Assembly (NCBI GenBank): GCA_020629035.1
Contig: JAHDEC010000005.1
Span: 1 to 64,000, forward strand
DNA from: Saprospiraceae bacterium
GTDB taxonomy: Bacteria > Bacteroidota > Bacteroidia > Chitinophagales > Saprospiraceae
Reading direction: 5' to 3'
DNA length: 64,000 nucleotides
The notes beneath the pieces are model-generated. The model was not told the DNA's origin. It saw only the letters and a program-made list of their open reading frames with translations, and made no database searches. This document shows, piece by piece, positions 7,423 to 42,051 of this stretch. A program made the translations under genes and the position numbers. Each line of letters opens with the position of its first letter. Positions within the stretch are counted from its first letter, which is position 1.

Positions 7423-10400
7423 TTATAATCCTGAAGGATCAAATTCTCTATTTAAACCAAACCACTTAAGTGTTCTTGATTCTCCTAACTCTGGAGCTTC
7501 AATATGAATTAAGTAGATTCCACTAGCTATCGGAATTCCAGCATAGTTTTTCAAATCCCAGTCTAAAGATGGAAGGGTTTGAGTTGTTTGAACCCCTGCA
7601 TTAGTTATTCCTTTTGCAGTAGCCATTTCATCTCTGTTAAACTCTCTAATAAACTTACCATCTAAACTATAGATTGTAACATCACAAACATCTGGTAAAT
7701 TCGTTATTCTAACTGTATTCTGGAATTGATTCGCTTCATAAGCAGACCAACCATAATATGGATTCGGTACTACATTAGTTTTTGCTAAAGCTCCTTCGTA
7801 TTCTTCTTGTTCCAAATCTGAAGGAGACTTACCTTCAATGACAAATTCATATCTTGGGTTTCCACCTATCGTATTACAACTAACTGCTTCATCCAAAATG
7901 AATTCTCTTTCTAAGCTATATTCATTATTAACTCTAAGCTTAACTGTTAGGTCGTTTGGAATTACTCCATTCTTATAAGAATCTAATGTTATGTTACCAC
8001 CTGGAAGCATAACCATTGAGCACCATGTTACTGAACGTAGCACATTTCTCATTCCGATCAAATTCGAAGCCAATGCTTCAGCAATTTCAGCACAACCATC
8101 ATAATCTTGACGCGTACAGTATACATTGTGTCCACCTCCCATCACTAGTTCTCTAATTAATGGGTTGGAAGGATCGAACAATGGTGTTGCGAATTGGCTT
8201 GATGGATTAAATAACATATCTCCACCTAATGGGTTACCATTGACTAATAGATCAACTTTATCTTCGTCAAAAATTGAGTTTTCACCAAAGAATATATTAA
8301 CTCGCTTACCAGTTTCTACATCAATAGCATATCCTGGGAACCAACTCATACCAACTGTTCCATCGTTCATTGGTTCACCATCTTTATCTACTGATGGAGA
8401 CTGACGCAATTGCATCATATCTGCATCACCAATAGTTGTTTCAATCTGACCAAGAACAGGCTCTAAATAATCTTCTGTTGCTGTTTCTACAACTACACAT
8501 CTTGACCATTTTGACTTGTCGCTAGTAAATACTATATCTACGTTATTCAGATTATACAAACCGTTGTCACTTAAGATTTGCTGGTGGAAACTAGAGTTTT
8601 TCCAAGCCGGAGTAATGTAAAAATCAAATAATGGATCTTGAGATTGTCTATAATCACACAGCCAGAATGGATACCAGTAACCATCTCCAAATGTGCTAAA
8701 AGCTCCACTCATATCATCACCAAAGTTGGATTGACCTTCATCAGTTTTCAAAAAGTCAAATACAGCTGCAAATGGACCTAATGGCTGATCTTCTGATTCA
8801 AAACCTGCACCATTATCTTCAATCGCCGCAAACCAAATAGATCCACCTTCATCTTCATAGCTTAATTCAGCAGATATCAAACCATTTGCTGGTGTTACAT
8901 TCGTTCCTGGTTCATCCGCTTGATTAATTTCTATACTGAAACCAAATTGTCCAAAAATCTGCTCGTTGATCTCATCAATAGTAGCAGTAGATTCGAATAC
9001 ATCACCTGTTTCCTTATGAGTTAATATCCAGGTAGCACTGTCTTGGAACTCACAAAGACCTCCACCTACAAACTCACCTATAATTTCTAATTCGTATGTG
9101 CCATCAACAACGTCTAAAGGATTATAAATTTTTACATTTATTGGCCCTCTTCCATCTACATATTGTAACTTCTCTATAGACTCTCCGTTCAGTATTTTTT
9201 CATACATTTCGTCAGTTAACTCCATTGAGTTTCCACCACTTCCTACTCCTTCTAATCTAAAGATTGTAGGTCCGTCACCATAAAATGAATTCATATTCTC
9301 ATAAACTATTGGTCTTGGAACGGCTGTATAGTTTTGGATATTTAAACGACCTTCTCTATAAGGTGTTTTTTGACCCAGGCCTGTCGCTACATCAAATGGC
9401 TCATATTCATTATAAGCGTATGCAATTACTGTAAAATAATATTCTTTATGATTAATAAGGGTTCTGTCACCCTCAGCAAAGGCATCTTCTAACACTTGGA
9501 AAGTATGAGCTACTCCTTCATCTTGCCCATTAACCATAATTTCGTAATTAAATACTAAATCTCCAGTTTCAGTGGTAGGGTTAACGGTAGATTCCCAATT
9601 ATACAGCTCAGTAATTCCATTTTTAACATCAACTTGTCTAATTAATTTTGCTCTTGTTACATCAGATAATTCCTGAGCAGAAACATTAGAGTGAGCCAAT
9701 TGATAAATTTTGTATCCTTCGAATACGTAGTCAATATTTTCTGCACCTTCATCTGCCAGGATATCTTCTTCTCTATAAGATTCATTAAGATTGTTTCTAG
9801 CAGGATCATTGCTTAGCACCAAAACAATTTCTCTATCTAATTCGATAACACATAAGTCTGGTGCATCAGGACCTCTTGGAATCTCAAAACAATTATCAAA
9901 TACAGCTTGAGCTAAATCATCTGCAGCTAATAATCTTGAAAGATCAGGGCATGGGTAAGTAATGTCCGGAACCCAAGGCACTCCAATAATAAGCTCATTT
10001 ACAGCACCCGGAGTTAATAAAAATGGTCCTGAAGCCTGAACAGTTCTTCTATCGCCAAAAGCAAGATCTGCCGTACACATTGACCATCCGTTACTATTTG
10101 GAGCGTCTGGAAATACATATTGAACGGTATCAACACTTCCTAGATTTAAACCACTACCACCAAAAGTAACAGCACCACCTTGCGGCCATAAACCTTGAAG
10201 TACATTATAATATCCTTCTGCTTCCTGTGGATCACAAGTCAATGGATCTGGAGTACCAACTCCGCAGTTATTTAAATATAGAAATGATGACATTCCCAAT
10301 TCTACTAATGTATCAAACGACCCACCAATTGGAGGGTTTACTAAAGTTGTGTCACCATTAGCATCAATAACAAATTGTTTTGGACCTAATGGACCTCTAA

Positions 10401-11523
10401 AATAATCTACCCCTAAAATTGGAACTCTGTCGCAATACGTCGGTACACCCGAGTCACAATTACATCCAGTAGAACCATCTGTAAGATCTTCGTTGTATAC
10501 ATACATTAAACTTCGTTCTACATTACAACCGATATAATCATCTGTATGACAACCTAAATCTGGGTCTACCCATAAAGCGAAGTATGCATCTCTAATATCT
10601 ACATCTGCTCTGTTAATTAATTTATATCGCTGAAATGTCATATCGTTCAATTCATCATTGGTTGCATAACCAAATGATTGAACTTGTACTTCCATATTAA
10701 TAGCATCTCCATTGGATAAAGCATGGGGAGCGCCTGCATCATTAAATATCCAGAAAATCATTTCATCTGGCACTAAAGTTTCTGCTTTTTTACGAGTATC
10801 AGGCTCACATCCTCTAATATCAATGATTGGAAAATCTCCCATCACTGGATCATATAACCCATCTTGATCTTCGTCCCAAAATGAGCCAAGTCCTTGGTCA
10901 TTAAATGGTAACTCAAAACCGTAAAAATCTGCAAATTCATCATTTCCTAAAGCTGGCCAATATCGCACATCGGGTGGAATTGAATCAATCGACAAATTAC
11001 AATCAGGGTTGTTTAAACAAGCATTGTAAATACCGATAGCTTTTAAAATGTCTTCTCCTTTTACTTCGAAGAATCTATCCCATTCATTACAAATTTCTAA
11101 ATCAGTTAGTCCAGTTTCAGGATCCAAAGGACCAGGGAAAAAATCCACTCCTCCTGTTCTATAATCTCCGGCAGCTACTTTTAAGTTTCCTGATGGATCA
11201 TATCCTCCTAACCATATTGAAGCAGCAAATATTGATGATACTTCAGGAACACCAGAACCCGGTTCTTGCTTTGGGACAATATATCTTCCTTCACCTTGTC
11301 CATCCCACCAAACATCACCACCTGTAAGAAGTCTCGCTCTTACATTATTAATACTTTGGTCAGTTTGCGCTGACGATGGAACACAATCTTCTCGAAAATT
11401 AATGTTCTCACTATTGTTGTTATTTGTTCCCTTATTACTTCTATTTGGATCAATGTGCGCATTGGCTGTAAATGCCGAAGACACAATCAATAATAGAGTA
11501 AAAAGCTTTATAATTCTATGCAT
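7423..11523 (-). CDS. Large secreted protein of a TonB/PorV cluster, with T9SS-like C-terminal region
   Basis: A 1366-residue protein with an N-terminal signal peptide (residues 1-22). It has a Ca-binding-like acidic loop (DEDQDGLYDP) near residue 220 and paired cysteines in the first half. Its C-terminal domain, beginning at VVPNPYYGWSAYE, resembles the FlgD-like or T9SS tail fold (IYSLDGKFIREF, then ASGIYLIHIEAPE). The extreme C-terminus differs from the usual short basic end of type A tails. It lies 26 bp behind the TonB receptor gene and 73 bp before the PorV-like gene, so the three probably form one transcription unit. I infer a surface-exposed protein working with its adjacent receptor. 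No enzymatic domain is recognisable. Confidence 0.75.
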   Translation of the reverse strand: MHRIIKLFTLLLIVSSAFTANAHIDPNRSNKGTNNNNSENINFREDCVPSSAQTDQSINNVRARLLTGGDVWWDGQGEGRYIVPKQEPGSGVPEVSSIFAASIWLGGYDPSGNLKVAAGDYRTGGVDFFPGPLDPETGLTDLEICNEWDRFFEVKGEDILKAIGIYNACLNNPDCNLSIDSIPPDVRYWPALGNDEFADFYGFELPFNDQGLGSFWDEDQDGLYDPVMGDFPIIDIRGCEPDTRKKAETLVPDEMIFWIFNDAGAPHALSNGDAINMEVQVQSFGYATNDELNDMTFQRYKLINRADVDIRDAYFALWVDPDLGCHTDDYIGCNVERSLMYVYNEDLTDGSTGCNCDSGVPTYCDRVPILGVDYFRGPLGPKQFVIDANGDTTLVNPPIGGSFDTLVELGMSSFLYLNNCGVGTPDPLTCDPQEAEGYYNVLQGLWPQGGAVTFGGSGLNLGSVDTVQYVFPDAPNSNGWSMCTADLAFGDRRTVQASGPFLLTPGAVNELIIGVPWVPDITYPCPDLSRLLAADDLAQAVFDNCFEIPRGPDAPDLCVIELDREIVLVLSNDPARNNLNESYREEDILADEGAENIDYVFEGYKIYQLAHSNVSAQELSDVTRAKLIRQVDVKNGITELYNWESTVNPTTETGDLVFNYEIMVNGQDEGVAHTFQVLEDAFAEGDRTLINHKEYYFTVIAYAYNEYEPFDVATGLGQKTPYREGRLNIQNYTAVPRPIVYENMNSFYGDGPTIFRLEGVGSGGNSMELTDEMYEKILNGESIEKLQYVDGRGPINVKIYNPLDVVDGTYELEIIGEFVGGGLCEFQDSATWILTHKETGDVFESTATIDEINEQIFGQFGFSIEINQADEPGTNVTPANGLISAELSYEDEGGSIWFAAIEDNGAGFESEDQPLGPFAAVFDFLKTDEGQSNFGDDMSGAFSTFGDGYWYPFWLCDYRQSQDPLFDFYITPAWKNSSFHQQILSDNGLYNLNNVDIVFTSDKSKWSRCVVVETATEDYLEPVLGQIETTIGDADMMQLRQSPSVDKDGEPMNDGTVGMSWFPGYAIDVETGKRVNIFFGENSIFDEDKVDLLVNGNPLGGDMLFNPSSQFATPLFDPSNPLIRELVMGGGHNVYCTRQDYDGCAEIAEALASNLIGMRNVLRSVTWCSMVMLPGGNITLDSYKNGVIPNDLTVKLRVNNEYSLEREFILDEAVSCNTIGGNPRYEFVIEGKSPSDLEQEEYEGALAKTNVVPNPYYGWSAYEANQFQNTVRITNLPDVCDVTIYSLDGKFIREFNRDEMATAKGITNAGVQTTQTLPSLDWDLKNYAGIPIASGIYLIHIEAPELGESRTLKWFGLNREFDPSGL

Positions 11524-25123: not shown

Positions 25124-28100
25124 ATGATTAAAAGGCTACACTCTTTTATCCTATTTTTCTGCACTTTTTTAGCTTTGTCCAATATTGCTTTTGGACAAAT
25201 TCCTACTGTTATCGAACCTTTGCCTCCAGTATACGTGGAATGTGAAGAAGATATACCTATGAGTCCAGAAGTATCGGTCGATCCTAATTGCGACATTACA
25301 CAGTTGATTAACATGATGTGTTTAAACACTGGATATCCAACTTCCTTGTGTGATGCTGACTCAGCTCCTGATGAAGATGGAACAAACACTTGGTCTATGT
25401 GGTTACCTCAACTTTCTGATGCTGGTTATGTGCCATCAGAATATTGGGTGTTTGATGCTGCTGGATCTTCACTTGAATTTTATGATGGCGGCTTTGCCCA
25501 CTTAACCGGAACCATTGAAAATGTAGATGACCCAAGCTATGGATTCATTCTAGATATGTGGTTTAAAGATGGAAGAAATTGGACTGACTGGTCTGCTAAT
25601 GGTGGTGGTTTCAATGACCAACTGGGAGTAGCTTCTGCAAATGGCTGGTTCCAAGATTGGGACTATTACATTTTAATGGAAGTTGTATCTCAATTGAGAG
25701 GTATCAATGCTTTAGCTGGAAACAACCTTTTGCTCTCTCATAAGCCAGGTGATTTCTCACTAGGTTTCCAAAGTGGATTGGGAGCAAATAATAAAAACCT
25801 TGGAGAAGGTTTTGGAGGATGGTTCAATTTTGCTGGACATATTGATGGACAGTTTATAAATGGAAATGGAGATCTAGCAACAAATACGAGTTGTACTCCT
25901 GGTCCTGAAGAAGAGTGCCCTAATTGCACTGACATTACTTGTTTCTGGGAATTTGTTGATGAGTGTGGCAACTATGGTTGTGTAACTCAAGTAGTAGTAG
26001 TTCAAGATGAAACTGCTCCAACTTTTGATAATTGTCCAGCAAACGAGACAGTGGATTGCGATGAGATGTCAACAAGTGTACCGGATGTAACAGCAACAGA
26101 TAATTGCGATATGGGTTCGGTTACTGTGGAGTATTTAGGAGAAATCCTTGTGAGCGATATGAATTGTGCGAAGGTTTATGAACGTGAATGGAAAGCAACC
26201 GATTGCAAAGGACACATGACCAGTTGTGTACAAACTATTTCAACACAAGATACAAATGGGCCAAGCTTTACAAATGTGCCTGAAGATGTAACTATTGAAT
26301 GTGATGAAAGTCTACCAACTGATCTTGCAGAAGGTGAAGATGGATGTACCGATGTAACAGCTAGCTATGATGATGTAACCACTCCTGGTAACTGTCCTCA
26401 CGAATATGTAATTACTAGAACTCATACCTTGGAAGATGAATGTGGAAACGAAATAAGTGATGTACAAATCATTACCGTTCAAGATTCTGAAGGTCCTGTT
26501 TTTGATGCTTATGATCCAGAAATTACTTTTAATTGTAACGACATTGGAACACTAACTGACTTAACAGCAACTGATAATTGTGGAACAGTAACTATAGTTT
26601 GCACAACTGATGAAGTTTCAGGAGGCTGCGCTGGAAGTTATTTAAGAGAATGTGTTGCTGTCGATGAATGTGGTAATGAAACAACTGCTACTCAAGTAGT
26701 TAATATTGTAGATGATGAGCCACCAGTAACCAATAATCCAGATGACTTCACCATCGAATGTGATGATGATGTACCAACAGCTCCAGATGTTACTGCAACA
26801 GACAACTGTGATGATGATGTGACACCTACACTAGTTGTAGATACAGAAGTTGTCGATGATTGCACAACTATCATAACATGGACATGGACTGCTATCGATC
26901 ATTGTGATAATGAATCCACAGAAACAACCACTGTAACAATAACAGATACAACGCCTCCAGTTTGGGGTCCATATGATCCTGTAATTAATGTTTCTTGTGA
27001 TGATAATGTCGATGACTGCGATGGAAATCATCCAGATGTTACAGATAATTGTGATGATAATGTAGAAATATTCTGTTCGACTGAAGTGGTTTCGGGAGGA
27101 TGTATCGATAACTTAATACGTAAATATTGGGCAGTTGATGATTGTGGTAATTATTCAGATACCATCGAAGTAATAATAAATGTGATGGATGATGAAGCTC
27201 CAAGCTTTACGAATTTTCCAGATGACATGAATATAGAATGTGATCAAACAGCTCCAACTACCCAAGAGATAGAGGATATGATTACATACACTGATAATTG
27301 TACAACTGTAACTCTAGTTTTTGAAGGTGAAACTACAACTCCAGGAACTTGTGAAAATTCATACACTGTGGAAAGATGTTGGAGCTTGATCGATGCATGT
27401 GGCAACGAAAGTGAAATAATGTGTCACTATGTAAATGTAGGTGACAACACAGATCCAGTAATAAATGGAGTAGGTCCTGATGGAACTTATGCCTGTGGAG
27501 AGAATCCTGTTTTTTCTGAGCCTTCAGCTGATGATAACTGTAATTTAGTTTCTTTTGATTTTGTAGAAACAGTTACAGGTACTAATTGCGCAGGTGATGT
27601 AATCACTAGAACTTGGACAGCTACGGATGCTTGTGGTAATACGGCTACTGCTTCACAAACTATGAGCGCTACGGATGATGTAGATCCAACAATTACTGGT
27701 GTAGGTCCTGATGGAACTTATACATGTGGTGGAACTCCAGTATTTTCTGAACCTACAGCTGATGATAATTGCAACCTTGTTTCTTTTGAAAACAGTGATG
27801 TAGTTACAGATACTAACTGTGCAGGTGATGTAATCACTAGAACTTGGACAGCTACGGATAATTGTGGCAATACAACTACTGTATCTCAAACAATGACACC
27901 AACTGATGATATTGATCCAACCATTATTGGAGTGGGTTCAGATGGCACATATGAATGTGGCAGCGATCCAGTATTCTCTGAGCCAATTGCAGGAGACAAT
28001 TGTAACTTGGTTTCTTTTGAAAACAGCGATGTAGTTACTGATACTAACTGTGCAGGTGATGTAATCACTAGAACTTGGACAGCTACAGATAATTGTGGTA

Positions 28101-31100
28101 ACACAACTACTGTTTCTCAAACAATGACTCCGGTGGATGATGTAGATCCTAGCATTACTGGTGTGGGTCAAGATGGAACTTATAATTGCGGAGATAATCC
28201 GGTATTCTCTACACCTGATGCAAGCGATAACTGTAATCTAGTATCTTTTGAAAATAGTGATGTGGTAACTGATACTAATTGTGCGGGTGATGTAATCACT
28301 AGAACTTGGACAGCTACTGATAATTGTGGTAATACAACTACCGTATCACAAACCATGACACCGGTGGATAATGTAGATCCAACTATCACAGGTGTAGGTC
28401 CTGATGGAACCTTTGAATGTGGAGATAATCCAATGTTTTCAGAACCAGAAGGAAGCGATGATTGTAATTTAGTTTCTTTCGATTCAAGTAGTATTGTATC
28501 TGGAAGCAATTGTGCAGGTGAAATCATAACTAGAACTTGGACAGCTACGGATAATTGTGGTAACACAACTACTGCTTCTCAAACAATGACACCAGTAGAT
28601 AACACTGATCCAACAATTACTGGTGTTGGACAAGATGGCACGTATGAGTGTGGTGATGATCCAGTTTTCTCTACACCAGATGCTAGTGATAATTGTAATC
28701 TTGTTTCTTTCGATTCTCAAGATGTGGTTACTGATACTAATTGTGCGGGCGATATAATCACTAGAACTTGGACAGCTACGGATAATTGTGGTAATACTAC
28801 TACTGCTTCTCAAACAATGACGCCAGTAGATAATGTAGATCCAAGCATAACTGGTGTAGGTGCTGACGGGACTTATGAGTGTGGTGATGATCCTGTATTC
28901 TCTACGCCGGATGCAAGTGATAACTGTAACTTGGTTTCTTTTGATTCTCAAGATGTGGTTACTGATACTAATTGTGCGGGTGATGTGATAACTAGAACTT
29001 GGACAGCTACGGATAATTGTGGTAATACTACTACTGCTTCTCAAACAATGACGCCGGTGGATGATGTAGATCCAAGCATTACAGGTGTAGGTCAAGATGG
29101 TACTTACGACTGTGGTGACACACCTGAGTTCTCAACACCAGATGCTAGTGATAACTGTAACTTGGTTTCTTTCGATTCTCAAGATGTGGTAACTGATACT
29201 AATTGTGCAGGTGATGTGATAACTAGAACTTGGACAGCTACTGATAATTGTGGTAACACAACTACTGCTTCTCAAACAATGACGCCAGTGGATGATGTAG
29301 ATCCTACTATTACTGGTGTAGGTCAAGATGGTACTTACGACTGTGGTGACAATCCAGTATTCTCTGAGCCATCTGCGGATGACAACTGTAACCTTGTTTC
29401 TTTTGATTCTCAAGATGTGGTAACTGATACTAATTGTGCAGGTGATGTAATCACTAGAACTTGGACAGCTACTGATAATTGTGGTAACACAACTACTGCT
29501 TCTCAAACAATGACACCAGTAGATGATGTGAATCCTATTATTACAGGTGTGGGTCCTGACGGAACTTATGAGTGTGGTGCAAACGCAGTATTCTCTGAGC
29601 CGGATGCAAGTGATAATTGTAACCTTGTTTCTTTTGACTTTGACGATGAAGTAGTTGGATCTAACTGTGCTGGTGATATTATCACTAGAACTTGGACAGC
29701 TACTGATAATTGTGGTAATACTACTACTGCTTCTCAAACAATGACGCCAAATGATGATACGGATCCTACTATTACTGGTGTAGGTGCTGATGGTACTTAT
29801 GAATGTGGTGATGATCCAGTATTCTCTACACCGGATGCAAATGATAACTGTAACCTAGTTTCTTTCGACTTCGTTGAAGAAGTTACTGGTTCTAACTGTG
29901 CTGGCGATATTATTACTAGAACTTGGACAGCTATTGATAATTGTCAAAATACTACTACGGCTAGTCAAACAATGACGCCAGTAGATGATGTAGATCCTAG
30001 CATTACTGGTGTAGGTGCTGACGGTACTTATGAATGTGGTGATGATCCTGTATTCTCTACGCCGGATGCTAGTGATAACTGCAACTTGGTTTCTTTCGAT
30101 TCTCAAGATGTGGTAACTGATACTAATTGTGCAGGTGATGTGATAACTAGAACTTGGACAGCTACTGATAATTGTGGTAATACTACTACTGCTTCTCAAA
30201 CAATGACGCCAGTGGATGATGTAGATCCTAGCATTACTGGTGTAGGTCAAGATGGTACTTACGACTGTGGTGATGATCCAGTATTCTCTGCGCCGGATGC
30301 TAGTGATAACTGTAATCTTGTTTCTTTCGATTCTCAAGATGTGGTTACTGATACTAATTGTGCAGGTGATGTGATAACTAGAACTTGGACAGCTACTGAT
30401 AATTGTGGTAACACAACTACTGCTTCTCAAACAATGACGCCAGTGGATGATGTAGATCCTACTATTACTGGTGTAGGTCAAGATGGTACTTACGACTGTG
30501 GTGACAATCCAGTATTCTCTGAACCATCTGCTGATGACAACTGTAACCTTGTTTCTTTCGATTCTCAAGATGTAGTAACTGATACTAATTGTGCAGGTGA
30601 TGTGATAACTAGAACTTGGACAGCTACTGACAATTGTGGTAACACAACTACTGCTTCTCAAACAATGACTCCAGTAGATGATGTGAATCCTGTCATTACT
30701 GGTGTAGGTCCTGACGGAACTTATGAGTGTGGTGCAAACGCAGTATTCTCTGAGCCGGATGCAAGTGATAATTGTAACCTTGTTTCTTTTGACTTTGACG
30801 ATGAAGTAGTTGGATCTAACTGTGCTGGTGATATTATCACTAGAACTTGGACAGCTACTGATAATTGTGGTAATACTACTACTGCTTCTCAAACAATGAC
30901 GCCAAATGATGATACGGATCCTACTATTACTGGTGTAGGTGCTGATGGTACTTATGAATGTGGTGATGATCCAGTATTCTCTACACCGGATGCAAATGAT
31001 AACTGTAACCTAGTTTCTTTCGACTTCGTTGAAGAAGTTACTGGTTCTAACTGTGCTGGCGATATTATTACTAGAACTTGGACAGCTATTGATAATTGTC

Positions 31101-34100
31101 AAAATACTACTACGGCTAGTCAAACAATGACGCCAGTAGATGATGTAGATCCTAGCATTACTGGTGTAGGTGCTGACAGCACTTATGAGTGTGGTGATGA
31201 TCCTGTATTCTCTTCGCCGGATGCAAGTGATAACTGTAACTTAGTTTCTTTTGATTCTCAAGATGTGGTAACTGATACTAATTGTGCGGGTGATGTAATC
31301 ACTAGAACTTGGACAGCTACTGATAATTGTGGTAATACTACTACTGCTTCTCAAACAATGACGCCAGTGGATGATGTAGATCCTAGCATTACTGGTGTAG
31401 GTCAAGATGGTACTTACGACTGTGGTGATGATCCAGTATTCTCTGCGCCGGATGCTAGTGATAACTGTAATCTTGTTTCTTTCGATTCTCAAGATGTGGT
31501 TACTGATACTAATTGTGCAGGTGATGTGATAACTAGAACTTGGACAGCTACTGATAATTGTGGTAACACAACTACTGCTTCTCAAACAATGACGCCAGTG
31601 GATGATGTAGATCCTACTATTACTGGTGTAGGTCAAGATGGTACTTACGACTGTGGTGACAATCCAGTATTCTCTGAGCCATCTGCGGATGACAATTGTA
31701 ACCTTGTTTCTTTTGATTCTCAAGATGTAGTAACTGATACTAATTGTGCAGGTGATGTAATTACTAGAACTTGGACAGCTACTGATAATTGTGGTAACAC
31801 TACTACTGCTTCTCAAACAATGACGCCAGTGGATGATGTAAATCCTGTTATTACAGGTGTGGGTCCTGATGGAACTTATGAGTGTGGTGCAAACGCAGTA
31901 TTCTCTGAGCCGGATGCAAGTGATAATTGTAACCTTGTTTCTTTTGACTTTGACGATGAAGTAGTTGGATCTAACTGTGCTGGTGATATTATCACTAGAA
32001 CTTGGACAGCTACTGATAATTGTGGTAATACTACTACTGCTTCTCAAACAATGACGCCAAATGATGATACGGATCCTACTATTACTGGTGTAGGTGCTGA
32101 TGGTACTTATGAATGTGGTGATGATCCAGTATTCTCTACACCGGATGCAAATGATAACTGTAACCTAGTTTCTTTCGACTTCGTTGAAGAAGTTACTGGT
32201 TCTAACTGTGCTGGCGATATTATTACTAGAACTTGGACAGCTATTGATAATTGTCAAAATACTACTACGGCTAGTCAAACAATGACGCCAGTAGATGATG
32301 TAGATCCTAGCATTACTGGTGTAGGTGCTGACAGCACTTATGAGTGTGGTGATGATCCTGTATTCTCTTCGCCGGATGCAAGTGATAACTGTAACTTAGT
32401 TTCTTTTGATTCTCAAGATGTGGTAACTGATACTAATTGTGCGGGTGATGTAATCACTAGAACTTGGACAGCTACTGATAATTGTGGTAATACTACTACT
32501 GCTTCTCAAACAATGACGCCAGTGGATGATGTAGATCCTAGCATTACTGGTGTAGGTCAAGATGGTACTTACGACTGTGGTGATGATCCAGTATTCTCTG
32601 CGCCGGATGCTAGTGATAACTGTAATCTTGTTTCTTTCGATTCTCAAGATGTGGTTACTGATACTAATTGTGCAGGTGATGTGATAACTAGAACTTGGAC
32701 AGCTACTGATAATTGTGGTAACACAACTACTGCTTCTCAAACAATGACGCCAGTGGATGATGTAGATCCTACTATTACTGGTGTAGGTCAAGATGGTACT
32801 TACGACTGTGGTGACAATCCAGTATTCTCTGAACCATCTGCTGATGACAACTGTAACCTTGTTTCTTTCGATTCTCAAGATGTGGTTACTGATACTAATT
32901 GTGCAGGTGATGTAATCACCAGAACTTGGACAGCTACTGACAATTGTGGTAACACAACTACTGCTTCTCAAACAATGACTCCAGTAGATGATGTGAATCC
33001 TGTCATTACTGGTGTAGGTCCTGACGGAACTTATGAGTGTGGTGCAAACGCAGTATTCTCTGAGCCGGATGCAAGTGATAATTGTAACCTTGTTTCTTTT
33101 GACTTTGACGATGAAGTAGTTGGATCTAACTGTGCTGGTGATATTATCACTAGAACTTGGACAGCTACTGATAATTGTGGTAATACTACTACTGCTTCTC
33201 AAACAATGACGCCAAATGATGATACGGATCCTACTATTACTGGTGTAGGTGCTGATGGTACTTATGAATGTGGTGATGATCCAGTATTCTCTACACCGGA
33301 TGCAAATGATAACTGTAACCTAGTTTCTTTCGACTTCGTTGAAGAAGTTACTGGTTCTAACTGTGCTGGCGATATTATTACTAGAACTTGGACAGCTATT
33401 GATAATTGTCAAAATACTACTACGGCTAGTCAAACAATGACGCCAGTAGATGATGTAGATCCTAGCATTACTGGTGTAGGTGCTGACGGTACTTATGAGT
33501 GTGGTGATGATCCTGTATTCTCAATACCTGATGCAAGTGATAACTGTAACTTGGTTTCTTTTGATGTCAATGACGAAGTAACGGGTACAACTTGTGCGGG
33601 AGATGTAATCACTAGAACTTGGACAGCTACTGATAATTGTGGTAATACTACTACTGCTTCTCAAACAATGGAAGCAACAGATTCTATTGATCCAGTTATT
33701 AGTGATGTAGGACCAGATGGTACTTACCAATGTGGTGACACTCCATCTTTCTCTGATCCAACTGCCAGTGATAATTGTAATCTAATATCTTTTAGTAGCA
33801 CTGATTTAGTAACAGGTACTAACTGCGCAGGCGATATCATAACAAGAAGTTGGACTGCTGTCGATGCATGTGGAAATTCTGTTTCTGCTATTCAAACTAT
33901 GACTCCAGTAGATGAAATCGATCCAGTAATTACAGGAACGACACAGGATGGTACTTACCAATGTGGCGAAACAGCTGTATTTGATGATCCATCTGCAAGC
34001 GATAATTGTAATTTAGTTTCGTTTGAATTTGAAGATACAGTCAGTGGAACAAGTTGTGCTGGTGATATAATCACAAGAACTTGGACAGCTACTGATGGTT

Positions 34101-36793
34101 GTGGAAATACAGCTATCTACAGTCAAACAATGACACCGGTGGATGAAGAAAATCCAACAATCACAGGCGTAGGACCAGATGGCAATTATGAATGTGGTGA
34201 TAGTCCAATGTTTTCAAATCCTGCAGCTGATGATGATTGTAATTTAGTTTTGTTTGATTCTAATGATGTTGTTACTGGAACAAACTGTGCTGGTGATATT
34301 ATTACTAGAACCTGGACTGCGACGGATGGTTGTGGTAATACAACTACAGCTTCACAAACAATGACACCTCAGGATAATATTGATCCAGTATTTGATTGTG
34401 TAGCTTCTGGAACTTGTCCAGAAGATGAAACATTAGCTTGTAATGCAACTCCAGAAGATGTAAGTCTTACTGCTAGTGATAATTGTTCTGATGCTCCAGT
34501 GACTGTAGTTGAAAATATAACTACAGAAGGATGTACTCAAACCATTACAAGAACTTATACAGCAACAGATGCTTGTGGTAACACCGCTTCAATTAGTTAT
34601 ACAATTACTGTTAAAAATGATAATATAGCTCCAGTATGGGAAACTAGTATTGATCCAGTAATTTACATTGATTGTAATGATGGCGGAATCCCAACATGTG
34701 AAGAAACCACACCTGATTATTTCGATAATTGTGAGGAATGTCCAGTAGAAGTATTTTGTATGGACGAGTCAGTTTCAGGTGGGTGCATTGATGATATCAT
34801 TAGAAAGTACTGGTTAGAAGATGCATGTGGTAATGTTTCTGATACTATTGAACAAATCATCAAAATCGTTGATGAAGATGCGCCATTCTTCACAGATTTC
34901 CCTTCAGGTGGGATGTATGAATGTTCTGATAATACTTCTATACCTAGTGTAGAGGATATGGAGTCAATGATTACATATGATGATAACTGTTCCACAGTGA
35001 CACTTGTTTACGAAGGAGAGACGGTAGAACCGGGACAATGTGAAGATGCTGAAATTATTACCAGATGCTGGTCATTAATTGATGCTTGTGGGAATGAAAG
35101 TGATGAAATGTGTGTAGTGATTACTACCGAGGATACTACTGATCCAATATTTGACTGTGTTGCCAATGGCAATTGCCCAGATGATTTAACGATAGATTGT
35201 GCAGATGATGTGCCTGGTCCTATGGATTTGACAGCAACTGACAATTGTGATAATGATGTGATGGTAACCCTTGAAACAAACGAATCAAGTACGGATTGTC
35301 CTAAGACTATCACATACACATATACAGCAACAGATAATTGTGGAAATGTTTCTACATATCAGTATGCAATAAATGTTAATGATAACATTGCTCCAGTAAT
35401 TACACTTACAGGAATGGCTGAAATGACAATTGAATGTGATGATACAGTACCTGCAGAAGGAGCAACTGTAACTGATAATTGTGATACAGATGTGATGATC
35501 GATGTGATGGAAGTGACTAATTATCCTGACCAAAATTGCTTATCATGCTACACGATTACACGAACATATACAGCAGTAGACGAATGTGGAAATGCGGCAA
35601 CACCTGTTGTACAGACTATTACAGTTGATGATAATACTGCTCCAGTGTTTGTTGGTCCTTTACCTGAAAATATGGTTTTATCATGTGATGAATCTTTACC
35701 TGAAGTTCCAGATGTAGAAGCTACAGATAACTGCGATGATAATGTTACGGTGAGCTATACTGAAGAAACAGTGGGTGATGATATTCCTGACGGTGCTGTA
35801 GAATTCTGTTCATTAGAGCAACCAGATAACGCAGCAGAAACTGTTTGTTACGGAGATGGAGCACCTGCTTGGTCTATGTATCTTCCAAGTTTTGTTTATG
35901 GTGGATATAACTATTACACATTAGTTGACGGATCATACACTGTATTTGCAGATGGTACATCGCAAATCACAGCTACTTTACAAAGTGTAGATAATCCTGC
36001 TGGAGAATGGTTATTAGAACTAGATCTTAGTGTAGGATATAACTGGACTGATTGGTCTGCTTTAGGTGGCTCTTACAAAGATGATTGTGGAGTGGTAAAT
36101 AGTTCTAACAATTATAATGAAGATTGGATTTACTATGCCATTGAAAACACAAGTACTTTGACTGGTTTAGGTGATTTTGCTGGTTCACTACTGAGCATAA
36201 CACATGCACCAGCTAGTTATTACTATGGATATCAAGTAGGCATTGGAGCAAACAATGTAAACTCTAACTTTGGTAGTGGTGGATGGTTCTTCTATGAAGG
36301 GAGTTTTGTAGAGAACTCTACTAATACTGACATAGAAGTTGAGTCTGACTTAGGTGATTTTGCTTTCGAACATGATTGCTGCCCTAATTACAAAGTTGTT
36401 AGAACATGGTGTGCAACTGATTGTAAAGGAAATGAAGTTTGTCACGAACAATGCATAGAGTATGAAGGTTTTGAAGATCCAACTGGTGAAAGCAAGCCTG
36501 ATAATACTGGTAATAGTATTTATACTGGACCTACTGTTATCGATTACAAGCTATTCCCGAATCCATCAAATGGTATAGTGAATCTTGAAATCAGTACAAG
36601 CATTGATCCTACAATAACAGTAGAAGTGTTCGATGTAACAGGTGGATCCGTTTATAGAAAAACAATAAACAGAGAACAAATGGATGTTATTTTACCAATT
36701 GATTTGCAAACATTCAAGAGTGGAATATACTATGTACGATTAAAATCTGCTAGCAGTAACGTTCAAATGGAACAAATAATGATTGCTAAATAA
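25124..36793 (+). CDS. Giant secreted Cys-rich repeat protein with HYR-like modules and T9SS type A sorting tail
   Basis: A 3889-residue surface or secreted protein, probably an adhesin or matrix fibre. Order: signal peptide 1-24; an unrecognised domain about 88-250; divergent HYR/Ig-like modules about 270-776, each ending in a TWTATDxCGN-type block; 30 tandem 77-residue units (777-3086); further HYR-like modules about 3087-3550; a second copy of the unrecognised domain about 3560-3735; and a T9SS tail from residue 3807 (KLFPNPSNGIVNLEI, then SGIYYVRL, ending MIAK). Each 77-residue unit has four cysteines and many Asp residues, suggesting disulfides and Ca binding. The ORF is open throughout with no frameshift. 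A strong terminator follows. HYR-like and T9SS assignments rest on motif recognition; the biological role is inferred. Confidence 0.88.
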   Translation: MIKRLHSFILFFCTFLALSNIAFGQIPTVIEPLPPVYVECEEDIPMSPEVSVDPNCDITQLINMMCLNTGYPTSLCDADSAPDEDGTNTWSMWLPQLSDAGYVPSEYWVFDAAGSSLEFYDGGFAHLTGTIENVDDPSYGFILDMWFKDGRNWTDWSANGGGFNDQLGVASANGWFQDWDYYILMEVVSQLRGINALAGNNLLLSHKPGDFSLGFQSGLGANNKNLGEGFGGWFNFAGHIDGQFINGNGDLATNTSCTPGPEEECPNCTDITCFWEFVDECGNYGCVTQVVVVQDETAPTFDNCPANETVDCDEMSTSVPDVTATDNCDMGSVTVEYLGEILVSDMNCAKVYEREWKATDCKGHMTSCVQTISTQDTNGPSFTNVPEDVTIECDESLPTDLAEGEDGCTDVTASYDDVTTPGNCPHEYVITRTHTLEDECGNEISDVQIITVQDSEGPVFDAYDPEITFNCNDIGTLTDLTATDNCGTVTIVCTTDEVSGGCAGSYLRECVAVDECGNETTATQVVNIVDDEPPVTNNPDDFTIECDDDVPTAPDVTATDNCDDDVTPTLVVDTEVVDDCTTIITWTWTAIDHCDNESTETTTVTITDTTPPVWGPYDPVINVSCDDNVDDCDGNHPDVTDNCDDNVEIFCSTEVVSGGCIDNLIRKYWAVDDCGNYSDTIEVIINVMDDEAPSFTNFPDDMNIECDQTAPTTQEIEDMITYTDNCTTVTLVFEGETTTPGTCENSYTVERCWSLIDACGNESEIMCHYVNVGDNTDPVINGVGPDGTYACGENPVFSEPSADDNCNLVSFDFVETVTGTNCAGDVITRTWTATDACGNTATASQTMSATDDVDPTITGVGPDGTYTCGGTPVFSEPTADDNCNLVSFENSDVVTDTNCAGDVITRTWTATDNCGNTTTVSQTMTPTDDIDPTIIGVGSDGTYECGSDPVFSEPIAGDNCNLVSFENSDVVTDTNCAGDVITRTWTATDNCGNTTTVSQTMTPVDDVDPSITGVGQDGTYNCGDNPVFSTPDASDNCNLVSFENSDVVTDTNCAGDVITRTWTATDNCGNTTTVSQTMTPVDNVDPTITGVGPDGTFECGDNPMFSEPEGSDDCNLVSFDSSSIVSGSNCAGEIITRTWTATDNCGNTTTASQTMTPVDNTDPTITGVGQDGTYECGDDPVFSTPDASDNCNLVSFDSQDVVTDTNCAGDIITRTWTATDNCGNTTTASQTMTPVDNVDPSITGVGADGTYECGDDPVFSTPDASDNCNLVSFDSQDVVTDTNCAGDVITRTWTATDNCGNTTTASQTMTPVDDVDPSITGVGQDGTYDCGDTPEFSTPDASDNCNLVSFDSQDVVTDTNCAGDVITRTWTATDNCGNTTTASQTMTPVDDVDPTITGVGQDGTYDCGDNPVFSEPSADDNCNLVSFDSQDVVTDTNCAGDVITRTWTATDNCGNTTTASQTMTPVDDVNPIITGVGPDGTYECGANAVFSEPDASDNCNLVSFDFDDEVVGSNCAGDIITRTWTATDNCGNTTTASQTMTPNDDTDPTITGVGADGTYECGDDPVFSTPDANDNCNLVSFDFVEEVTGSNCAGDIITRTWTAIDNCQNTTTASQTMTPVDDVDPSITGVGADGTYECGDDPVFSTPDASDNCNLVSFDSQDVVTDTNCAGDVITRTWTATDNCGNTTTASQTMTPVDDVDPSITGVGQDGTYDCGDDPVFSAPDASDNCNLVSFDSQDVVTDTNCAGDVITRTWTATDNCGNTTTASQTMTPVDDVDPTITGVGQDGTYDCGDNPVFSEPSADDNCNLVSFDSQDVVTDTNCAGDVITRTWTATDNCGNTTTASQTMTPVDDVNPVITGVGPDGTYECGANAVFSEPDASDNCNLVSFDFDDEVVGSNCAGDIITRTWTATDNCGNTTTASQTMTPNDDTDPTITGVGADGTYECGDDPVFSTPDANDNCNLVSFDFVEEVTGSNCAGDIITRTWTAIDNCQNTTTASQTMTPVDDVDPSITGVGADSTYECGDDPVFSSPDASDNCNLVSFDSQDVVTDTNCAGDVITRTWTATDNCGNTTTASQTMTPVDDVDPSITGVGQDGTYDCGDDPVFSAPDASDNCNLVSFDSQDVVTDTNCAGDVITRTWTATDNCGNTTTASQTMTPVDDVDPTITGVGQDGTYDCGDNPVFSEPSADDNCNLVSFDSQDVVTDTNCAGDVITRTWTATDNCGNTTTASQTMTPVDDVNPVITGVGPDGTYECGANAVFSEPDASDNCNLVSFDFDDEVVGSNCAGDIITRTWTATDNCGNTTTASQTMTPNDDTDPTITGVGADGTYECGDDPVFSTPDANDNCNLVSFDFVEEVTGSNCAGDIITRTWTAIDNCQNTTTASQTMTPVDDVDPSITGVGADSTYECGDDPVFSSPDASDNCNLVSFDSQDVVTDTNCAGDVITRTWTATDNCGNTTTASQTMTPVDDVDPSITGVGQDGTYDCGDDPVFSAPDASDNCNLVSFDSQDVVTDTNCAGDVITRTWTATDNCGNTTTASQTMTPVDDVDPTITGVGQDGTYDCGDNPVFSEPSADDNCNLVSFDSQDVVTDTNCAGDVITRTWTATDNCGNTTTASQTMTPVDDVNPVITGVGPDGTYECGANAVFSEPDASDNCNLVSFDFDDEVVGSNCAGDIITRTWTATDNCGNTTTASQTMTPNDDTDPTITGVGADGTYECGDDPVFSTPDANDNCNLVSFDFVEEVTGSNCAGDIITRTWTAIDNCQNTTTASQTMTPVDDVDPSITGVGADGTYECGDDPVFSIPDASDNCNLVSFDVNDEVTGTTCAGDVITRTWTATDNCGNTTTASQTMEATDSIDPVISDVGPDGTYQCGDTPSFSDPTASDNCNLISFSSTDLVTGTNCAGDIITRSWTAVDACGNSVSAIQTMTPVDEIDPVITGTTQDGTYQCGETAVFDDPSASDNCNLVSFEFEDTVSGTSCAGDIITRTWTATDGCGNTAIYSQTMTPVDEENPTITGVGPDGNYECGDSPMFSNPAADDDCNLVLFDSNDVVTGTNCAGDIITRTWTATDGCGNTTTASQTMTPQDNIDPVFDCVASGTCPEDETLACNATPEDVSLTASDNCSDAPVTVVENITTEGCTQTITRTYTATDACGNTASISYTITVKNDNIAPVWETSIDPVIYIDCNDGGIPTCEETTPDYFDNCEECPVEVFCMDESVSGGCIDDIIRKYWLEDACGNVSDTIEQIIKIVDEDAPFFTDFPSGGMYECSDNTSIPSVEDMESMITYDDNCSTVTLVYEGETVEPGQCEDAEIITRCWSLIDACGNESDEMCVVITTEDTTDPIFDCVANGNCPDDLTIDCADDVPGPMDLTATDNCDNDVMVTLETNESSTDCPKTITYTYTATDNCGNVSTYQYAINVNDNIAPVITLTGMAEMTIECDDTVPAEGATVTDNCDTDVMIDVMEVTNYPDQNCLSCYTITRTYTAVDECGNAATPVVQTITVDDNTAPVFVGPLPENMVLSCDESLPEVPDVEATDNCDDNVTVSYTEETVGDDIPDGAVEFCSLEQPDNAAETVCYGDGAPAWSMYLPSFVYGGYNYYTLVDGSYTVFADGTSQITATLQSVDNPAGEWLLELDLSVGYNWTDWSALGGSYKDDCGVVNSSNNYNEDWIYYAIENTSTLTGLGDFAGSLLSITHAPASYYYGYQVGIGANNVNSNFGSGGWFFYEGSFVENSTNTDIEVESDLGDFAFEHDCCPNYKVVRTWCATDCKGNEVCHEQCIEYEGFEDPTGESKPDNTGNSIYTGPTVIDYKLFPNPSNGIVNLEISTSIDPTITVEVFDVTGGSVYRKTINREQMDVILPIDLQTFKSGIYYVRLKSASSNVQMEQIMIAK
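25385..25861 (+). other. N-terminal copy of an unrecognised paired domain
   Basis: Encodes about 160 residues beginning NTWSMWLPQL and containing LTGTI, the NWTDWS block with GGGF after it, DWDYYIL, LLLSHKP and GLGANNKN before a GGWF motif. The same ordered motifs recur near the C-terminus of the same protein (35864-36318). Tryptophans, glycines and the GANN motif suggest a beta-sandwich or lectin-like fold, but I cannot name a family. Confidence 0.6.
27452..34381 (+). repeat. Tandem array of 30 units of 231 bp (77 residues each)
   Basis: The array is exactly 6930 bp, that is 30 x 231, with no indel in any unit. Each unit runs from (D/N)P through ITGVG, DGTYECG, SDNCNLVSF, NCAGD and ITRTWTATDNCGN to SQTMTP. 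The first few (units 1-5) and last four (27-30) units are more diverged, while units 6-26 are nearly identical, as expected for an array that expands and homogenises in its middle. Unit n starts at 27452 + 231(n-1). Long ORFs on the opposite strand here are by-products of the repeat. Confidence 0.95.
28838..33457 (+). repeat. Higher-order repeat: four copies of a five-unit, 1155-bp block
   Basis: Units 7-11, 12-16, 17-21 and 22-26 form blocks starting at 28838, 29993, 31148 and 32303. Within a block the five units differ in a fixed order: ADG-type, QDG-type, QDG/SEPSAD-type, NP(V/I)ITGVGPDG/GANAV-type, and ADG/STPDAN-type with IDNCQN. The first unit of blocks 3 and 4 is identical over its length at DNA level as far as I compared it, while third units form two alternating sequence types. 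Unit 27 starts like a fifth block and then diverges. Confidence 0.93.
35864..36318 (+). other. C-terminal copy of the unrecognised paired domain
   Basis: Encodes PAWSMYLPSF, an ITATL segment, NWTDWSALGG, EDWIYYAI, LLSITHAP, GIGANNVN and SGGWFFYEG, in the same order and spacing as the N-terminal copy at 25385. Sequence identity between the two is low to moderate, so the duplication is old. The T9SS tail follows about 160 residues later. Confidence 0.6.
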
Positions 36794-37270: not shown

Positions 37271-39745
37271 TTATCTTCTTGCAGCCACCTTATTTCCTTG
37301 GTCATCAACCCAGTAAGGATGCCAGACTAAAATAATTTCGTCCACCTTAATATCAGTTTTTCTGGGCGTTATTTCTTTTTCAATGACGCCTACTGTTATT
37401 TCTTCCCACTTAGCTCTCACCTCTCCTAAAGCCTCACTTAAATCGCGCTCTAGTAATTCTCTATCTTCTGCAAGATCCATCAGATCTGATTTACTTTCTT
37501 CTAACTTTTGTGTAGCTTTTTTTCTCATTCTACTTTTGGAAGTAGCACTACTAATGGATCGAGATCTTCCTTTAACAAAAACAGAGAAAATGGTTTCTGC
37601 CATCCCTACTACTTCACTAGTTCTTCTGCTTCTTACTTCAGCTTTTGCTTCTTCTAAATCAAATTGCTCTTTGCGTATTTTATCTTCTACTCGATCTAAC
37701 TTGTCTTCAAATTTATCTTGAATCTTATCTAATTCTTCGTCACGCAATTCTCTGGCTAACTGCTGAACCCTCATTTGGAAAGCGCTTGCTGTTTCGCCAT
37801 TTTCTTGAAAAATCTTGAGTTTAGGATGTTCATAAATGCTCGTTTTTTCATGTTGGTATAACCAATTTGCAAATTCCTTTGAAATAGTTTTTACTTCTTT
37901 TAAAGTATCCATGGAATCTGGAACTGCACTATAACTTACACTTAAGGTATCTGGATGATCAGCCGTCTCAATGAGCTTTTTCTGCCAATCTTCTATACCG
38001 ACAGAATGCTCCCAATCAATCCTACCAAAATCATCTGGACCTAAGGATAAATATGCCACATCTTTAATAATATCTACCCCTCGTTTAGCATTATAAAAAC
38101 GCACCTTTCCTATGGATAAAACTAGGGGATCATATCGTAAGGAAGGATTGCGACTTCCTAATTCCTGCTCAGCTTCAGAAGCTGACTTCCAAACCCCAAA
38201 GTAACGTTGCGCAATATTAGGATCTAAATTAGGTGCTTGGCTCTTAGTATCAACCAACATTGATGCTGCTTCGCTGGTATTATCTGGTTTACTTTCTTTT
38301 GTTGTTAATACTGGCTTCTTTCGAGCGTCCTTAGTTGCTGCCATCAATGTTTTTACCTGAGGACGTGTGAGTGGCCCGCGTAAATAAGACATAACCCAGC
38401 GTGTATGATAAACAACAGGTTCTGCTTCATGGACATTGTGATATAGAAACACTCTGGAGCCCAACGAACTTATTAATGAATCAAAATTCTTAGATATGGA
38501 TGAACCAGCTTCAGCAATGGCACCTTTTAGACCATCAACAACCCGCATTTTATCTCTTTCTGTCTGCAATTTTCCTATAAACCAGGTACCAGCATTGGAC
38601 AAACCCTTATAATCTATGTCTACTGGGTTTTGTGTGACCAATACCGCGCCAACACCAAAAGCTCTTGCTTGCTTTAAAATAGTAAGCAATGGTTTTTTAG
38701 ACGGTGGGTTTTTGGTAGGAGGAAAGTATCCAAAGATTTCATCAAAATACAATAAGCTTCTTAAGCTTGAAGTACCTGATTGGCTTCTCATCCAAGTGAT
38801 TAGGCTATTCAATAATAAAGTAACAAAAAACATCCGCTCGCTTTCCGAAAGGTGGGCTATATAAAAAATACTATGCCTAGGTTTACCCTCTTCAGTAAAA
38901 TAGATCTTTTCAATATCTAATGAATCTCCCTGTAGCCAATATCTAAATTGGGGTGATGCCACTAAGGTGTTAAAGTCCATAGCCATTTTAAACCGATCCT
39001 TTTGTGGATAAAATGTATCTACGTCGAAAACACCTAATTGCGCAAATGGAGGTTTCTGAATACCATTTATCAATTTTGCTAGATCTAAATCTTCCCCTAA
39101 TCTCCAATAATGTTCAAACAAAGTAGCGAGTAGAATTCCTTCTCTACTTCTAGCTGGGTCTTCTTTGCTTCCTATCATTCCTAATAAGGCAGCCACTGTA
39201 CCTTGTATCCTCTCTCGAAGCATTTCCGCATCATCATCAAAATGTATACTAGGTGCCGCAAAAGAACCCATGATATTGATGGGTATGCCGGAGTCTGACC
39301 CCGGCGTATATATAGTATATTCTACAGCATCTTTTAATGCTTTTATTCGCTCCTTACCTTGTCCCCAATTTCCCAAACCATTTTCCCACATTTCTGCGGT
39401 ACTCTTTGAATATTCATCGACAGTCTTTCCTTTACGATTAGCGTCATCTGGATTAATCCATTGCTTAAATGAAGTTGGATCTAAATCTTCAAATTGCAAT
39501 AGTAGATTTGTCATATCGCCTTTAGGGTCAATGATGATTGCTGGCACCTTGTCCAGAGCCGCCTCCTCAAGTAAACCTATGCACAAGCCTGTTTTACCAC
39601 TCCCTGTCATGCCTACACAAACTGCGTGCGTAGTTAGATCTCTGGAATCATAATTAATAGCTTCACCCGTTAACTGCTTCTTTGCAATATCATATTTTCC
39701 GCCCAAATAAAATGAGCCTAGTTTTTCAGGAGGACATGGTATCAT
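37271..39745 (-). CDS. HerA/FtsK-like P-loop ATPase with C-terminal coiled coil
   Basis: An 824-residue cytoplasmic ATPase of the HerA/DUF87 type. Walker A GMTGSGKT is at residues 45-52, followed by IIDPKGDMTNL, a segment shared with HerA-like DNA translocases, and a Walker B-like LLYFDEIFGYFPP near residue 335, then VLVTQNPVDIDYKGL. Residues about 640-780 are highly charged and predicted coiled coil (repeated DKIQDKFEDKLDRVEDKI-type heptads). No NurA nuclease or restriction/defence gene accompanies it; the only operon partner is the DCC protein 1 bp downstream. Related stand-alone ATPases exist in many bacteria, with no settled role. DNA pumping is an inference. Confidence 0.78.
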   Translation of the reverse strand: MIPCPPEKLGSFYLGGKYDIAKKQLTGEAINYDSRDLTTHAVCVGMTGSGKTGLCIGLLEEAALDKVPAIIIDPKGDMTNLLLQFEDLDPTSFKQWINPDDANRKGKTVDEYSKSTAEMWENGLGNWGQGKERIKALKDAVEYTIYTPGSDSGIPINIMGSFAAPSIHFDDDAEMLRERIQGTVAALLGMIGSKEDPARSREGILLATLFEHYWRLGEDLDLAKLINGIQKPPFAQLGVFDVDTFYPQKDRFKMAMDFNTLVASPQFRYWLQGDSLDIEKIYFTEEGKPRHSIFYIAHLSESERMFFVTLLLNSLITWMRSQSGTSSLRSLLYFDEIFGYFPPTKNPPSKKPLLTILKQARAFGVGAVLVTQNPVDIDYKGLSNAGTWFIGKLQTERDKMRVVDGLKGAIAEAGSSISKNFDSLISSLGSRVFLYHNVHEAEPVVYHTRWVMSYLRGPLTRPQVKTLMAATKDARKKPVLTTKESKPDNTSEAASMLVDTKSQAPNLDPNIAQRYFGVWKSASEAEQELGSRNPSLRYDPLVLSIGKVRFYNAKRGVDIIKDVAYLSLGPDDFGRIDWEHSVGIEDWQKKLIETADHPDTLSVSYSAVPDSMDTLKEVKTISKEFANWLYQHEKTSIYEHPKLKIFQENGETASAFQMRVQQLARELRDEELDKIQDKFEDKLDRVEDKIRKEQFDLEEAKAEVRSRRTSEVVGMAETIFSVFVKGRSRSISSATSKSRMRKKATQKLEESKSDLMDLAEDRELLERDLSEALGEVRAKWEEITVGVIEKEITPRKTDIKVDEIILVWHPYWVDDQGNKVAARR

Positions 39746-41067: not shown

Positions 41068-42051
41068 TTAAGCTAAGTACTTATCTTCTCTAAGCAAGCG
41101 AATCTTTGTAGTTCCATCTTTCTCAGTCACAAAGAAGGAATACAAATTATCACCTATGTCGATGGTATATTCAGCAGAAGCATCTAAACTGCCTGAGTCA
41201 ACTTTGAATGATCTTGACCATTCCTCATTAGACATAAAATCTATTTTGGTTAACTGCATTCGTTTATCTGATAGGACTTCATATTTAAAGTAAGCTCCTA
41301 TACCTTCACAATCGACCCATTGTCTATCTGGATACTCTTTAAATACCTTATCATAATATCCAGGATTTCGTTTGCCATTATAAAATCGAATGTGATCTAG
41401 AAACTTTTGAGATACTTCATGATTTTGCTCGTTTTCATAGACTTGATAGCCACGCTTTCTATCTAATAAGAATACATTATCTACAGGCGTAGGTGTTATT
41501 ACACCAAACCTAAAGGCAAAATCCAAGGATCCGGGTTTTCTTCCCTCGATAAGAACTGAGCGTACAAATCTCGAACAATTAGAATTTTTACTGCCGAAAA
41601 TATTGTAATGCATAAATCCTTTTTCACAAAATGCTTTTGCCAAATCAAAGGACTTTTTAAAAGAACAGTTAGCCAGCACCTTATAAATTAAAGGACCACC
41701 AGACATATGTATATTAAACGCATCATAAACCCATTTTACGATCTCCAAAATATTGTCAATCTTGCCATCCTTAATCACCGCTTTAAACGGGACCTTTAAT
41801 AATGGATCTTCGATATACATCCTTGCTCTACCCATGGTAGGAGCCACACAGTATCTTCCAAAATCTGCATAGACAATTTCACCATCAGCAGCATTGACCA
41901 TCACAATTAAAGAATGACCTAAACCAGTTAGTCCGTCTTTATTAAATCCTAAACGCTGTAAAATAGGTTTATACCACTGATCGGGTAGGTAAATTTTCCA
42001 ATTTGGAAAACCCATAGGTATTAAAAAATCTTGGTAGGTGGAACTAGACAT
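41068..42051 (-). CDS. Uncharacterised protein, possible permuted papain-fold (NlpC/P60-like) domain
   Basis: A 327-residue cytoplasmic-looking protein without a signal peptide. I recall similar Bacteroidota proteins filed under DUF6695, but cannot confirm it. A GLGHSLIVMV segment with H46, followed much later by NSNCSRFVRSVL with C159, is in the His-before-Cys order of permuted NlpC/P60 (YiiX/LRAT-like) enzymes. The C-terminal third carries a separate beta-rich part. It lies 12 bp behind dapD in an operon with the PAP2-like gene. An enzymatic role on lipids, peptides or ubiquitin-like amides is only an inference from the fold guess. Confidence 0.6.
   Translation of the reverse strand: MSSSTYQDFLIPMGFPNWKIYLPDQWYKPILQRLGFNKDGLTGLGHSLIVMVNAADGEIVYADFGRYCVAPTMGRARMYIEDPLLKVPFKAVIKDGKIDNILEIVKWVYDAFNIHMSGGPLIYKVLANCSFKKSFDLAKAFCEKGFMHYNIFGSKNSNCSRFVRSVLIEGRKPGSLDFAFRFGVITPTPVDNVFLLDRKRGYQVYENEQNHEVSQKFLDHIRFYNGKRNPGYYDKVFKEYPDRQWVDCEGIGAYFKYEVLSDKRMQLTKIDFMSNEEWSRSFKVDSGSLDASAEYTIDIGDNLYSFFVTEKDGTTKIRLLREDKYLA

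Follow-up and report, generated by a model that had tools for sequence, protein, structure and literature searches.

One open reading frame in the window, by which we mean the whole stretch of 64,000 nucleotides analysed here from a Saprospiraceae bacterium, encodes a giant protein that carries two copies of a single domain of about 180 amino acids (residues 76–257 and 3562–3752), one near each end of a long stalk of HYR-like modules. We refer to this domain as the knob. The giant is probably a two-headed cell-surface adhesin exported through T9SS, with its heads held on a stabilised HYR stalk. Its predicted export and architecture are supported by the sequence, and we infer surface anchoring, disulfides, calcium, ligand binding and adhesion. 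The conserved bookend of unclassified nested knobs, which was absent from the preliminary description of this DNA, is the part worth following; the repeat array of the giant is ordinary for the group.

Table 1. Features of the giant gene, with their positions in the window and the evidence for each.
Feature	Position	Strand	Evidence
Giant repeat open reading frame	25124–36793	+	3889 aa, no internal stop
Putative Sec signal peptide (MIKRLHSFILFFCTFLALSNIAFG/Q)	25124–25195	+	Translation inspected by eye
HYR-like module, first half, host of N-terminal knob	25202–25348	+	Weak HYR-profile fragment preceding the knob
N-terminal knob domain, residues 76–257	25349–25894	+	Homology to C-terminal knob; no Pfam/NCBIfam match
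Split HYR-like module, second half, at N-knob	25895–26008	+	HYR-profile fragment, model positions 45–77
Divergent HYR_4C modules, N-knob to array	26009–27445	+	PF23237, six stretches in 26045–27450, 62.4 bits
HYR_4C array, 30 units (231 bp, 77 aa) with four Cys apiece	27446–34375	+	PF23237, 29.3–30.8 bits, cut-off 27
Five-unit super-repeat (1155 bp) in four copies, units 7–26	28832–33451	+	Lag identity, exact 962-bp match
Divergent HYR_4C modules 3' of array	34376–35620	+	PF23237, four stretches, 98.5 bits
HYR_4C module, first half, host of C-terminal knob	35621–35806	+	HYR profile positions 1–49, ending at the knob, 33.1 bits
C-terminal knob domain, residues 3562–3752	35807–36379	+	AlphaFold2 pLDDT 93.8, pTM 0.89; alignments; no Pfam/NCBIfam match
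Split HYR_4C module, second half, at C-knob	36380–36469	+	CPNYKVVRTWCATDCKGNEVCHEQCIEYEG read by eye; HYR fragment equally placed in related genes
T9SS type A C-terminal sorting domain	36551–36784	+	PF18962, residues 3810–3887, 40.8 bits vs 27; TIGR04183, 30.5 vs 23

The preliminary description was accurate as regards the layout of the gene (Table 1). The 3889-residue frame is uninterrupted in translation, HYR-like modules are present, with PF23237 stretches flanking the array on both sides, and the T9SS type A tail scores above the cut-offs of two models. The 30 units are indeed of exactly 231 bp and in exact register, without an indel, in agreement with Tandem Repeats Finder (period 231, 29.9 copies), and each of the 30 contains four cysteines, so that the array holds 120 (about 120 had been claimed) of the 204 cysteines of the protein. 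An array unit has on average 13.3 acidic and 1.0 basic residues, and the pI of the mature protein is ~4.05.

That description also took the unit to be unusual and the length of the array to be exceptional, neither of which held. The comparison with Pfam that it had proposed showed the unit to be covered by HYR_4C (PF23237, 'HYR-like domain with 4 cysteines'; curated cut-off 27 bits): the whole giant protein yields 33 stretches and 483 bits, and every single array unit tested passes the cut-off on its own (29.3, 29.8 and 30.8 bits). The array units share with the family a near-full-length model match and the four cysteines, and differ from it merely in sequence detail and in their very regular 77-aa spacing. 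A characterised protein with such an array was not found, and a literature search for HYR_4C, or for HYR combined with T9SS, returned nothing. HYR-type giants occur widely among aquatic Bacteroidota. Of 61 related genomes, 41 contain HYR_4C, frequently in arrays kept in register at 231–240 bp, and the HYR_4C-bearing frames of relatives reach 9868 and 7568 aa; together with the PF23237 match, this makes both the unit and the long arrays known in kind. The genome from which the window comes has further HYR-bearing open frames of 7297 aa (G000:C39, near 74446–87774) and 4908 aa (G000:C51, near 66381), neither with a knob match. The OmpL47 barrel model NF047446 was rejected as an assignment, as its 43.6 bits (cut-off 40) were reached without any single stretch passing; the match probably reflects a shared Ig-like pattern. 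The Leptospira OmpL47-type equivalog NF047441 scored 40.7 bits, below its cut-off of 250.

Within the array, units 7–26 form four copies of a five-unit super-repeat with an exact 962-bp match at a lag of 1155 bp; the mean identity of units is 0.893 at lag 5 versus about 0.80 at the other lags up to 9. The ortholog from the same genus (L034 in genome G001; 3504 aa counted from the matching ATG) has its longest exact repeat at a four-unit lag. Its last three units pair one to one with those of the window, the middle units are closer to their neighbours in the same genome than to the units of the ortholog, and the two flanks align without gaps at 84% and 83% identity. In a third genome (G002), the array is interrupted by contig ends. 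Unit number is labile, because the ortholog has 25 units versus 30, and it is also uncertain in the draft assembly: with an exact repeat of 962 bp and a draft of 63 contigs, the exact copy number is possibly an assembly result. Between units, dN/dS is low, at about 0.2 for the window and 0.12 for the ortholog, so purifying selection constrains the protein sequence of the unit, and 64 units from the three genomes retain the 231-bp spacing with zero indels and zero stops.

The two knobs share 34% identity in a 254-column alignment of the wider region (E 3e-36), and the N-terminal knob is 84% and 67% identical to its counterparts in two genomes of the same genus. Scans of both knobs against Pfam and NCBIfam gave no matching model, and comparison of the knob with PDB by sequence gave no usable hit (best no better than E 0.6). 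The knob is rare: of 120 relatives 12 have it, and an even sample of 395 genomes from across the phylum yielded 8 with it. A scan of GTDB species genomes, built on a closer sequence set, placed it at 24 loci, all in MAGs, labelled Saprospiraceae, Flavobacteriales, Crocinitomicaceae, Cytophagia, Chitinophaga and Sphingobacteriales. Some small Flavobacteriales genomes have up to 15 knob matches. Ten matches were seen in a 2.5-Mb MAG titled Chryseobacterium gleum (L044, CALQJP020000002.1), whose species label looks doubtful.

The knob breaks the HYR_4C profile at positions about 41–51, which is where the Cys3 (TNCAG) loop lies in an ordinary unit. The clearest cases of this nesting are the C-terminal knobs of four related genes (L064 at 3097, L065, L079 and L072), in which the HYR profile runs to positions 45–51, is followed by the knob and resumes at positions 41–46. 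In the window, the first half of the C-knob host (positions 1–49) is clear and the second half was read by eye (CCPNYKVVRTWCATDCKGNE); at the N-knob, both HYR halves were detected, weakly. Because the knob emerges from the Cys3 loop of HYR_4C, its host module is a split domain. Two cysteines at the neck of the knob are nearly always both present, and both are absent in a few related N-knobs, as read from the alignment with a loose counting rule; this pattern fits a putative disulfide at the neck. Knobs outside HYR modules are found in L082, L086 and L088–L090, and nesting in a HYR module is usual, not universal.

The plan of signal peptide, knob, HYR modules, knob and T9SS tail recurs in 18 complete genes, each with exactly two knobs, from several Bacteroidota families, including Saprospiraceae and Flavobacteriales MAGs (the window, L034, two in L064, L065–L068, L070, L072–L075, L077, L079, L084, L085 and L088). 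Many of them were fetched for showing two knob matches, so the set is no census; three of the 18 belong to two genomes of the even phylum sample (G175 and G449), in which two families with this plan were drawn blind. In these genes, about 50–80 aa separate the end of the C-knob from the T9SS tail, and the frames of relatives range from 1819 to 3901 aa. Genes with a single knob and a tail also occur (L078 at 991, L089). Twin-knob genes are often arranged in tandem (L064 1–14730, L066, L067 and L078; three in a row in G120), with a tail of their own where complete, and those at L078 3180–9435 and in L076 are apparently split by frameshifts that separate the N-knob part from the C-knob part, with sequencing error and phase change as candidate causes.

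A tree was built from 36 knobs in 18 genes, two of which are truncated at contig ends. In it, the N-knobs group together and so do the C-knobs (support 87/85; 85% of bootstrap trees), and the pair is therefore old. Forcing the N and C knobs of the genus of the window together was rejected (p-AU 0.024), and with it a separate knob duplication within that genus. It follows that the knob duplication is older than the split between the Saprospiraceae and Flavobacteriales genes, or else that the whole two-headed gene moved between these groups.

AlphaFold2 predicts the knob alone as a mostly beta structure with long final strands (pLDDT 93.8, pTM 0.89), and the C-knob with its host module is predicted at pLDDT 90.2. 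A Foldseek search of PDB with the knob model gave no hit at E ≤ 0.001 (best E 0.18); among the non-significant hits were avidin, lipocalin/retinol-binding protein, nitrobindin, GID4 and designed barrels, none with a query-normalised TM-score above 0.35. A viral fold library likewise gave nothing significant. With the knob plus host module, the peptide-binding/split domain of FrhA ranked first, non-significantly, and other RTX adhesin parts were among the top hits. No homology to FrhA or RTX adhesin parts is claimed, as a TM-score of at most 0.18 for FrhA and E-values of 7.8e-3 and worse are too weak.

Besides the type A tail, T9SS export is supported by SprA (1546.6 bits, cut-off 200) and PorV (426 bits, cut-off 250) encoded in the same genome. 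On visual inspection of the translation, the N-terminus looks like a typical Sec signal peptide. Passage through T9SS, cleavage and surface anchoring by a type A C-terminal domain is a known pathway. The surface fibre proposed in the preliminary description stands as far as T9SS export and a long Cys/Asp-rich stalk are concerned (tail, SprA, PorV and composition); adhesion stays a matter of interpretation, better grounded because knob domains have been found. The neighbours of the giant gene (an MscS-type channel, an aromatic amino-acid lyase and a HerA-like ATPase) carry no functional hint; the HerA/TrwB-like ATPase (37274–39745, minus strand) lies directly downstream in convergent orientation. 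Elsewhere on the minus strand of the window, a 1366-aa protein (7426–11523) that lacks a Pfam match and has a weakly PorZ-like C-terminus (E 8e-4) adjoins an outer-membrane protein of the PorV/PorQ family (6264–7349; 105.5 bits, cut-off 90), and the two are possibly a T9SS accessory pair. A 327-aa protein (41071–42051, minus strand) contains a TseH-like domain (PF25218, 122.6 bits vs 27) within this Bacteroidota genome.

In the proposed mechanism, the signal peptide would bring the giant into the periplasm, from where its type A C-terminal domain would route it through T9SS, followed by cleavage and anchoring at the surface. The 30 HYR_4C units and about 14 divergent ones would form a long Ig-like stalk, presumably with intra-unit disulfides, and a beta-rich knob near each end would bud from a Cys3 loop. 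The knobs would serve as binding heads, for which a glycan, a peptide or the knob of another cell are candidate ligands, one head being placed near the cell surface and the other at the far tip. The stalk would set the spacing of the heads, and the number of units would change by recombination within the array.

We know of no ligand, structure or phenotype for any knob protein, which counts against the adhesin reading. The Foldseek null, the HycP knock-out (PMC3723904), the knobs outside HYR modules and the rarity of the knob also speak against it. A less likely explanation is a structural matrix or sheath of HYR fibres packed laterally or end on, with the knobs serving as polymerisation contacts (knob with knob or knob with stalk) and not as heads for foreign ligands, although the old N and C knob types at both ends would suit head-to-tail assembly and some MAGs have several tandem copies. 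There is no direct evidence of assembly, the spacer varies widely in length among relatives (1819–3901 aa frames), and proteins with a T9SS type A tail are normally anchored to the outer membrane as single chains. The namesake of HYR, sea-urchin hyalin, is a protein of an extracellular layer, as cited in PMC3723904, and would also agree with a matrix.

We consider it quite improbable that the giant captures soluble ligands instead of acting as an adhesin, its knobs being barrels that bind small molecules or nutrients. Up-and-down barrels are among the best knob hits in Foldseek (avidin, lipocalin/retinol-binding protein, nitrobindin, GID4), but none passes E 0.001 or exceeds the TM-score given above, a 0.4-MDa stalk would be a costly carrier, and no uptake genes directly adjoin the giant gene. 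Similarly improbable is a generic HYR surface protein in which array length is mainly the outcome of unequal recombination and unit number has little function. Such recombination would account for the five-unit super-repeat in the window, the four-unit lag in the ortholog, the 30 versus 25 units and the greater resemblance of middle units within a genome, and the genome's many further HYR_4C matches would fit a generic protein; against this, the units of three genomes without indel or stop, their low dN/dS, the 83–84% identical flanks and the conserved knob pair all point to a maintained function.

The adhesin reading may be extended, at somewhat less than even confidence on our part: the knob could be an undescribed ligand-binding family, possibly with a new up-and-down barrel arrangement, and could define an ancient class of two-headed adhesins exported by T9SS, whose membrane-near and membrane-far heads, each on a split HYR module, would work as a pair kept at a distance by a stalk that recombines and is adjustable in length. 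With the knob, HYR-type giants gain a specific, testable working part, some 180 aa long and confidently predicted in structure, and the principle of display on split domains, known from RTX adhesins, is extended to T9SS. Since the N and C knob types are old and separate, both heads can be argued to be needed, and their function can therefore be tested on small recombinant pieces.

SprB-type gliding adhesins of Flavobacteria are giant repetitive T9SS cargo with a type B tail. The giant shares this nature but carries a type A tail above cut-off; no type B model was among its matches, and type C was below cut-off. HycP comes from a Gram-positive host, has a C-terminal, non-nested CBM3 and does not involve T9SS. 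Like the giant, it combines tandem HYR-type modules in a giant protein with a separate domain; in Clostridium cellulolyticum it contains 23 HYR modules and CBM3, and its knock-out had no cellulose-adhesion defect (PMC3723904). In RTX adhesins, ligand-binding domains bud from Ig-like split domains (PMC12077191; see also PMC10865825), and those of A. hydrophila (AhLap) and V. cholerae (FrhA) likewise have a long Ig-like stalk with an inserted domain that splits one module (PMC12077191, PMC10865825). By interrupting HYR_4C at about 41–51 the knob follows the same design principle, which is not homology, and may bind a ligand. No RTX families were found in the giant in the Pfam or NCBIfam scans, a T9SS tail takes the place of a type I secretion signal, and the knob has no significant sequence or fold similarity to known RTX adhesin heads. 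It is because the knob agrees with the split-domain architecture in an unrelated secretion system that we read the giant as a stalk with two heads. RTX adhesins use type I secretion and display one distal head cluster, whereas the giant would be exported by T9SS and carry heads at both ends.
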